A DNA stretch of 38,055 bases from Alphaproteobacteria bacterium UBA4588. GTDB taxonomy: Bacteria; Pseudomonadota; Alphaproteobacteria; Puniceispirillales; Puniceispirillaceae. The position numbers and the translations under genes were made by a program. Location of the stretch: the NCBI GenBank assembly GCA_949529445.1, contig CATISA010000119.1, forward strand, positions 1 to 38,055. Direction: 5' to 3'. The notes beneath the pieces were generated by a model that saw nothing but the letters and a program-made list of their open reading frames with translations, did not search any database and was not told where the DNA came from. Below, piece after piece: positions 1 to 1,214 of this stretch (its first letter is position 1; every line of letters begins with the position of its first letter).

Positions 1-3
1 AAA

Positions 4-558
4 TTGTCGATATGGGATGATTTGCTCGTTCGCGTTGGGCGCGACCGTGATAAAATCGCTTTTTCAGAACTCTTTGACTATTTTGGCCCACGGGTAAAAT
101 CATTCTTGCTACGCTTTGGTACGGATATGTCGTTGGCAGAAGAAATTGCTCAGGAAGCTATGATTATGGTCTGGCGACGCGCTGAAACCTACGACCCACG
201 GCAATCAGCGGCAAGTACCTGGATTTTTACAATTGCCCGTAACAAACGGATCGATAGGCTCCGGCGGGAGAACCGTCCCTTGCCAGATATGACCGATCCT
301 ACCCTGATGCCTGAGAGCATCGAAACAGGCGAAATTCAGGTCGCGCGCATACAACAAGAGAAAAAAATTCGCCACGCTTTGAAAAACTTGCCAGAAGAGC
401 AAGCCAAAATGATCTTTTCTGCGTATTACGAAGAGAAAAGTCATAGAGAGATAGCTGAAGAGAGCGGCGTTGCGCTTGGCACTGTTAAATCTCGTATCAG
501 ACTCGCACTCAATCGTTTGCGTGCACACATAGATGAAGACGAAGGAATAACACCATAA
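4..558 (+). CDS. ECF-family RNA polymerase sigma factor (RpoE/ChrR-partner type)
   Basis: This is an extracytoplasmic-function sigma factor of 184 residues that should redirect RNA polymerase to a stress regulon. A sigma region 2 spans about residues 19-88 (SELFDYFGPRVKSFL, then STWIFTIARNKRIDRLRR), followed by a short linker and a sigma region 4 helix-turn-helix at about 122-174 (SHREIAEESGVALGTVKSRI). The TTG at base 4 is the first available start. The frame is open to base 1, so the true start may lie upstream of the window and the gene may be cut. Its stop overlaps the start of the next gene by one base (TAATG), so the two are translationally coupled. That neighbour is a ChrR-like cupin anti-sigma factor, which places this protein with the sigma factors that answer singlet oxygen and related oxidants in other alphaproteobacteria. 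The family assignment is firm; the signal is inferred. Confidence 0.9.
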   Translation: MSIWDDLLVRVGRDRDKIAFSELFDYFGPRVKSFLLRFGTDMSLAEEIAQEAMIMVWRRAETYDPRQSAASTWIFTIARNKRIDRLRRENRPLPDMTDPTLMPESIETGEIQVARIQQEKKIRHALKNLPEEQAKMIFSAYYEEKSHREIAEESGVALGTVKSRIRLALNRLRAHIDEDEGITP

Positions 559-1214
559 TGAACGAACAAGTTTCGCTCAACTATCAGGTACTTGACGCGC
601 TGTTGCTTGACTATGCAGCGGGCGCATTATCGCAGCCGCTTGAGATTCTCATCGAAACGCATCTGGCAATGAACCCAGAAAGCGCAAAGACGATGCGGAT
701 TCTTATGCAGCTTGGCGGGATCTTGCTTGAAGAATGCGAGCCAGTTTCATTATCAGAGGATGCACTCAATAAAGTAATGAGCGCTATTGCTGAAGACGAA
801 GAGCCGCTTCAAAAGACGACCCAGCCGGAACATAGTTTCCTGCCACGGCCGATCTCAGACTATATCCCTGATTTATCCTGCACCAAAAGTTGGCGTAGTG
901 CGGGTATTGGGATTTCACGCCATGACGTTACCTTCGACAACCCAGACATGCGCGCAACCATCTATCGCATTCAGCCTAACAAGGCAGTGCCATTGCATAG
1001 TCACACTGGAGCTGAAATCTCGTTAGTGGTAGCAGGTGGCTTTTCTGATGAAAGTGGCACGTATGGGCCGGGTGATATCGCTATTCAAGAAGCAGGTGGG
1101 GTCCATAAACCTGTTGCTGATGCTGACGGGGAATGCATTGTATTCGCGGTAAATGAAGGTGATATACGCTTGGCGGGCCCGCTTGGCAGGGTTTTCAACC
1201 TCCTAATGAAATAA
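558..1214 (+). CDS. chrR: ChrR-type cupin anti-sigma factor with altered zinc-binding N-terminus
   Basis: This 218-residue protein should bind and hold the sigma factor encoded just upstream and release it on oxidative signal. Residues 1-80 match the anti-sigma domain (ALLLDYAAGALSQPLEILIETH). Residues 130-218 form a cupin with the metal ligand pattern intact: His147, His149, Glu153 and His183. In the characterised Rhodobacter ChrR, the N-terminal zinc is held by two His and two Cys in an H-x3-C-x2-C arrangement plus an upstream His. Here His35 is kept, but the Cys positions are Asn39 (H-L-A-M-N) and Ser42 (P-E-S), and the upstream His position appears to be Gln10. The start overlaps the sigma stop by one base, and an AAGGA lies just upstream. 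Family membership is secure; loss of the N-terminal zinc site is read from the sequence against remembered ligand positions. Confidence 0.88.
   Translation: MNEQVSLNYQVLDALLLDYAAGALSQPLEILIETHLAMNPESAKTMRILMQLGGILLEECEPVSLSEDALNKVMSAIAEDEEPLQKTTQPEHSFLPRPISDYIPDLSCTKSWRSAGIGISRHDVTFDNPDMRATIYRIQPNKAVPLHSHTGAEISLVVAGGFSDESGTYGPGDIAIQEAGGVHKPVADADGECIVFAVNEGDIRLAGPLGRVFNLLMK

Follow-up and report, generated by a model that had tools for sequence, protein, structure and literature searches.

A ChrR-family anti-sigma factor of SAR116 with a degraded N-terminal zinc site and an intact cupin

Introduction

ChrR anti-sigma factors contain two metal sites, and which of them senses singlet oxygen is disputed. 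According to PMC6852236, ChrR from Rhodobacter sphaeroides needs zinc to inhibit sigma-E and its cupin is required for the singlet-oxygen response, while the precise role of the N-terminal zinc in that response is described in this review as unknown. Fast oxidation of a model peptide has been argued to be a possible key event, by authors who present the role of the N-terminal zinc as under debate (PMC6432622), and the cupin has been named as the sensor (PMC4960319). The locus described here, in which a ChrR-family gene lies next to the gene of its presumed sigma partner, raises the question of what becomes of sigma binding and sensing when the N-terminal zinc ligands are replaced and the cupin ligands are kept.

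Results

The stretch of DNA analysed (the window; 38,055 nucleotides) is contig C119 from base 1, part of a 1.93 Mb genome in 159 contigs. The near relatives of this genome that carry names are MAGs from the SAR116 cluster and from other alphaproteobacteria. Its first gene encodes a protein with both Sigma70_r2 and Sigma70_r4_2 above cut-off in a profile search. The nearest solved relative of this product is R. sphaeroides RpoE (2q1z_A, E 4.1e-44), making it a candidate member of the ECF11 sigma group. The gene runs off the contig end at positions 1-3, and its true start is missing; the N-terminus is longer in relatives (e.g. L003). The ChrR-family gene lies directly downstream, its start codon sharing one base with the stop codon of the sigma gene. 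Its product matches TIGR02451 with 140.8 bits (cut-off 124.5) over residues 11-218, corresponding to the full length of the profile, and does not reach the narrower ChrR equivalog NF051881 (137.6 bits, cut-off 300). The features of the locus are summarized in Table 1. No second, zinc-type ChrR copy was found in this genome with TIGR02451, which gave a single match. A Cupin_7 match on contig C74 was considered as a second ChrR and rejected, being a 184-aa cupin ORF with no match to the ChrR profile built here.

Table 1 Features of the sigma/anti-sigma locus in the window (residue numbers refer to the window ChrR unless stated otherwise).
Feature	Position	Strand	Basis
RpoE-type ECF sigma factor gene, 5'-truncated by contig start; presumed to encode the partner of the ChrR-family protein	1..558	+	ORF open at 5' end
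ChrR-family anti-sigma factor, 218 aa	558..1214	+	TIGR02451; 2z2s_B (phmmer) E 2.4e-28
Anti-sigma domain, about residues 1-78, without intact zinc site	558..791	+	Alignment to 2z2s_B; model helices
Q10 codon, place of zinc ligand H6	585..587	+	Alignments
H35 codon CAT, place of zinc ligand H31, kept	660..662	+	Alignments; 25/25 SAR116 relatives
N39 codon AAC, place of zinc ligand C35; N-cap position in model	672..674	+	Alignments; model; 25/25 SAR116 relatives
S42 codon AGC, equivalent to zinc ligand C38; in model, within the first turn of helix III	681..683	+	Alignments; model; 25/25 SAR116 relatives
Cupin domain, about residues 95-205	840..1172	+	Cupin_7 above cut-off, residues 111-196; model strands 113-205
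Cupin metal ligands H147 (CAT 996-998), H149 (CAC 1002-1004), E153	996..1016	+	Alignments
Cupin metal ligand H183	1104..1106	+	Alignments

Ligand positions were assigned by phmmer against the solved R. sphaeroides ChrR 2z2s_B and by MAFFT alignments in R. sphaeroides numbering, with the ligand numbers of that protein taken from PMC6852236. The zinc ligands H6, H31, C35 and C38 correspond to Q10, H35, N39 and S42 of the window ChrR. The H-x3-C-x2-C motif thus reads H35-x3-N39-x2-S42 with Q10 upstream, three of the four ligands being replaced and H35 alone being kept. Misalignment of the motif is ruled out for H35, N39 and S42, on which the phmmer and MAFFT alignments agree. The cupin ligands H141, H143, E147 and H177 correspond to H147, H149, E153 and H183, all intact. 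Every residue named for the two sites in a preliminary description of this DNA is therefore correct by alignment. With one ligand of four left, a ChrR-type Zn(His2Cys2) site cannot form, and any sigma binding would have to proceed without it. C193 (1134-1136), a cupin residue close to the position of R. sphaeroides C187, does not vary among the 25 SAR116 ChrRs described below; C187 itself is reported as dispensable for the response (PMC6852236).

A search of 61 SAR116-family genomes at the TIGR02451 cut-off gave a full-length ChrR in 25 of them, as a single copy in each. Only weak matches were obtained in 10 further genomes, and those examined as loci proved to be cupin proteins that do not match ChrR over its full length. 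All 25 distinct proteins read H-x3-N-x2-S, all are encoded downstream of a sigma gene on the same strand, and together they form one clade (SH-aLRT 100). Position 10 is variable (Q in 11, T in 9, E in 4 and D in 1), so that what is shared is loss of the His, not a conserved Gln; in the single ChrR with D (L009/L018), the preceding residue is a His, which aligns with H5 of R. sphaeroides, not a zinc ligand. The median dN/dS was 0.064 for the anti-sigma domain and 0.108 for the cupin, over 23 SAR116 pairs with unsaturated dS that are not independent of one another. Fixation in the clade, the adjacent sigma gene and the low dN/dS show a protein maintained under purifying selection, and the identical H35, N39 and S42 in 25/25 relatives together with the low dN/dS rule out chance, assembly error or a pseudogene.

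Other positions of the anti-sigma domain also set the SAR116 proteins apart. D18, E29, E33 and H35 are invariant in 25/25, with E29 and E33 typical of SAR116, the zinc-type rows of the alignment having mostly S/A and A there. In helix III, SAR116 ChrRs carry M/I/L at position 46 (23/25), M/I at 48 (23/25) and M/L at 50 (25/25), compared with R 29, A 19 and L 17 at position 48 and E 79 and D 20 at position 50 among 113 zinc-type rows, one of which is R. sphaeroides. The residue after the second Cys is Arg in 103 of these 113 rows, and Ala or Ser in SAR116. A Pro directly follows N39 in 15 of the 25.

The N-terminal site was then compared across the class and the phylum. The class draw comprised 385 genomes, with the matches listed examined to E about 2e-26. 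The phylum draw comprised 398 genomes and contributed 30 loci, the remaining full-length matches listed from other classes, and 23 matches from the class, mostly low scorers, with about ten mid-scoring class matches left out. Dropped from the set were L082, which is split over two frames and not full length, and eight further loci that matched only in the cupin or in part. Among the matches listed there were 258 distinct full-length ChrRs, 176 with the complete HHCC set and 82 without it. The latter comprise the 25 from SAR116 and 57 others, and all are alphaproteobacterial (82 of the 211 alphaproteobacterial ChrRs among the matches listed); 82/258 is not an unbiased rate, since the class part of the phylum draw is enriched for low scorers and only best matches were taken. 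The class draw by itself gave 36 degraded ChrRs out of the 147 distinct full-length ones among the matches listed. HHCC was present in 47/47 of those listed from other classes of the phylum.

The 57 degraded ChrRs from outside SAR116 come, among the matches listed, from 29 family codes. They keep none of the four ligands in 26 cases, one in 24 and two in 7, with H31 persisting in 30, C35 in 4, H6 in 3 and C38 in 1. The H6 column is alignment-dependent in these lineages (L128 and L147 read H in one alignment and L in another), and weight was therefore placed on C35 and C38. Asn and Ser at these two positions, which the preliminary description had suggested counting among homologues, occur as H-x3-N-x2-S in 25/25 SAR116 ChrRs and, outside them, in L273 among the 258 listed; the other 56 differ at the ligand positions. 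Replacements of C35 outside SAR116 are S in 13, N in 10 and D in 8, together 31/53 as compared with a domain background of 20% for S/N/D/T, and Arg or Lys in a further 15/53, a statistic that ignores kinship among the sequences. The cupin ligands, in contrast to the degraded N-terminal site, read H, H, E, H in 258/258 distinct ChrRs among the matches listed. These were picked with a profile that includes the cupin, so that strongly altered cupins could go unseen; a change of a single cupin ligand should not cost a full-length profile match.

Two further kinds of ChrR-like protein were encountered. L297 (3155-5345), L298 (3249-4824) and L300 (5041-6665), from three family codes, encode zinc-less ChrR-like proteins with no sigma gene detected adjacent; each adjoins a short-chain dehydrogenase-like ORF and lies near a cysteine-synthase-like ORF, both named by eye from motifs. 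These proteins may represent orphan ChrRs that serve a different role. In L041, L042 and L044-L047, from family or order members without a full-length ChrR, proteins of about 226-235 aa carry two tandem cupin-like matches to the ChrR profile and resemble the solved double-cupin 'Anti-ECFsigma factor, ChrR' 3o14.

To estimate the number of origins, a tree was built without the four ligand columns. The state of the two Cys positions, CC or lost, requires at least 15 changes on a tree of 174 rows and 11 changes on 157 rows (17 long-branch rows left out), and strongly supported branches alone force 3. Holding the 55 degraded rows among these 157 together as a single zinc-free subfamily was rejected (AU test, p 0.0006). 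As HHCC is present outside the class, loss would be the likelier direction of change. The view of the preliminary description that the window ChrR belongs to a distinct subgroup is not supported as worded: another 57 distinct alphaproteobacterial ChrRs have this site degraded, with more than one origin. Judged from the sequences, loss of the N-terminal zinc site is not special to SAR116 and appears as one of several parallel losses.

An AlphaFold2 single-chain model of the window ChrR was built from 14 sequences, without sigma (mean pLDDT 71.5). The nearest fold is ChrR 2q1z_B (TM 0.71 when scaled by target length, with Z 15.3 and an rmsd of 5.4 over 164). The anti-sigma domain is modelled as helices 3-20, 26-38, 40-58 and 67-78. 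Helix II ends at 38 and helix III begins at 40, leaving N39 as the lone residue between them, at an N-cap position.

Upstream regions and candidate targets were also inspected. A sigma-E type pattern (TGATC, 17-21 bases, TAA) was present upstream of 0/25 SAR116 sigma genes, two of which have only about 100 bases upstream, and in 24/97 other upstream regions. In the window's genome, L286 (726-4199, minus strand) contains adjacent FAD-dependent oxidoreductase-like, DUF1365 and methyltransferase-like ORFs, of which the oxidoreductase and the methyltransferase were named by eye. We take this cluster to resemble genes tied to ChrR turnover and known sigma-E targets. By-eye comparison gave no defensible upstream motif shared by the sigma genes and this cluster. 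DUF1365 was tried as a marker of ChrR genomes and discarded, being present in 54/61 family genomes with no separation.

Discussion

The window ChrR is probably a working anti-sigma factor whose N-terminal domain needs no zinc to fold or to hold the neighbouring RpoE-type sigma factor, with the cupin keeping its metal and receiving the signal. Its sequence is best read in terms of sigma binding independent of zinc, and the cupin would then be its only metal sensor. The preliminary description had held that sequestration here must be zinc-independent. The loss of a ChrR-type site stands, with one of four ligands left; sequestration itself is predicted, from gene adjacency and constraint.

As to how the domain could manage without zinc, we favour the following scheme. 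The N-terminal zinc would be an exchangeable structural staple. In SAR116, the clamp of the zinc knuckle at the start of helix III would be replaced by N39 capping the helix, S42 lying in its first turn, and the staple would also be compensated by a more hydrophobic helix III with a larger hydrophobic face. Sigma would be released via the cupin and not via oxidation of N-terminal cysteines. In R. sphaeroides, sigma release proceeds by ChrR turnover. The N-cap idea is incomplete, since 15 of the 53 C35 replacements elsewhere are Arg or Lys. A wider reading, to which we give somewhat less than even odds, extends the scheme to ChrR systems at large: the N-terminal zinc, lost several times in alphaproteobacteria with the cupin untouched, would stand outside sensing altogether, and SAR116 sensing and release would be a matter of the cupin only.

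An alternative is that the N-terminal domain has decayed and sequesters no sigma factor, so that the protein is chiefly a cupin next to a constitutively active or otherwise controlled sigma factor. The reported need of R. sphaeroides ChrR for zinc to inhibit (PMC6852236) counts against the preferred reading and would fit decay. So would the situation outside SAR116, where no adjacent sigma gene was found for 20/57 degraded ChrRs compared with 12/176 HHCC ChrRs (Fisher p 7e-7, kinship ignored), which suggests that zinc loss may elsewhere accompany loss of the anti-sigma role. SAR116 ChrRs do not show this pattern: the sigma gene is adjacent in 25/25, the anti-sigma domain is more constrained than the cupin, and H35, N39, S42, E29 and E33, among others, are invariant. 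For SAR116 we therefore consider decay unlikely.

A second alternative keeps sigma binding and changes the signal, such that loss of the N-terminal Cys residues has made the SAR116 pair deaf to singlet oxygen and responsive, for example, to organic peroxides only. In PMC6432622, whose authors call the role of the site debated, a peptide modelled on the HHCC site of ChrR is reported to react quickly with singlet oxygen and to lose its fold, and singlet oxygen and organic peroxide are reported to reach R. sphaeroides ChrR by different routes (PMC3818230). We judge this reading decidedly improbable, given that the cupin, which R. sphaeroides needs for its singlet-oxygen response, keeps its ligands in every ChrR among the matches listed. 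The window's genome also keeps the FAD-protein/DUF1365/methyltransferase cluster, a weak point because DUF1365 is found in family genomes with or without ChrR. Least probable of all, and to our mind very doubtful, is an N-terminal domain that still binds metal through H35 and the acids D18, E29 and E33 in place of His2Cys2: all four are invariant in SAR116 and E29 and E33 are typical of it, but E33 and H35 stand two apart on one predicted helix and would face different sides.

Under the preferred reading of a working, zinc-free anti-sigma domain, the SAR116 proteins are natural zinc-site knock-outs that retain cupin and sigma partner and have no conserved N-terminal thiol, which allows the two sites to be studied apart. 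They would provide a natural test of which ChrR metal site senses, and bear on the dispute over whether the N-terminal zinc takes part in sensing singlet oxygen. Provided that singlet oxygen is still sensed by these systems, the recurrent loss of the N-terminal site while the cupin stays unchanged speaks for the cupin as sensor. Anti-sigma domains free of zinc are in themselves not new (RseA; zinc-free RsiW). Published counts put the motif in 227/248 cytoplasmic anti-sigma domains, given as 95% (PMC2893595), or in 92% (PMC6432622), so that the 5-8% without it imply that such domains were known to exist in general. Motif-based surveys that start from H-x3-C-x2-C, as PMC4960319 does, omit such proteins by design. 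In the open-licence literature on ChrR, zinc, ECF11 and ZAS we found no title on a zinc-free ChrR, and nothing related on SAR116 anti-sigma factors or singlet oxygen.

The closest known system is R. sphaeroides ChrR/sigma-E (PDB 2q1z, 2z2s; ECF11), with which the window pair shares the two domains, the order of sigma and anti-sigma genes, the fold and the four cupin ligands. It differs in the replacement of three of four N-terminal ligands and in a remodelled helix III and residue after the second Cys. The 57 zinc-less ChrRs of other alphaproteobacteria likewise combine intact cupin ligands with a degraded N-terminal site; they differ in the residues at the ligand positions (56 of them) and, in 20, in having no adjacent sigma gene found.

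More distant systems show how zinc can be dispensed with. As described in PMC6852236, E. coli RseA has no significant sequence similarity to ChrR and forms a similar helical bundle without zinc, protein-protein contacts taking the place of the metal within the same fold. Unlike the window ChrR, RseA is regulated by membrane proteolysis, and the account of it in PMC6852236 describes no cupin. Sigma binding without metal, proposed here, has been shown for two ZAS proteins. Zinc-free Bacillus subtilis RsiW is reported to retain complex and fold; when RsiW binds zinc, its first Cys is placed in a loop and its second Cys within helix 3 (PMC5358783), the same geometry as that of N39 and S42 in our model. 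For Mycobacterium tuberculosis RshA, changing both Cys residues is reported to leave SigH binding intact (PMC3427169). Unlike the window ChrR, RsiW and RshA carry H-x3-C-x2-C, and the metal was removed or the Cys changed by experimenters.

Precedent for a role of the retained His, by analogy with these proteins, is mixed. Changing the His of RshA weakened SigH binding according to PMC3427169, whose abstract says that binding was abolished. In Neisseria MseR, the Cys residues are reported to matter and the His not (PMC2893595), the reverse both of RshA and of the SAR116 pattern, in which the His is kept and the Cys residues are gone; this counts against the preferred reading.
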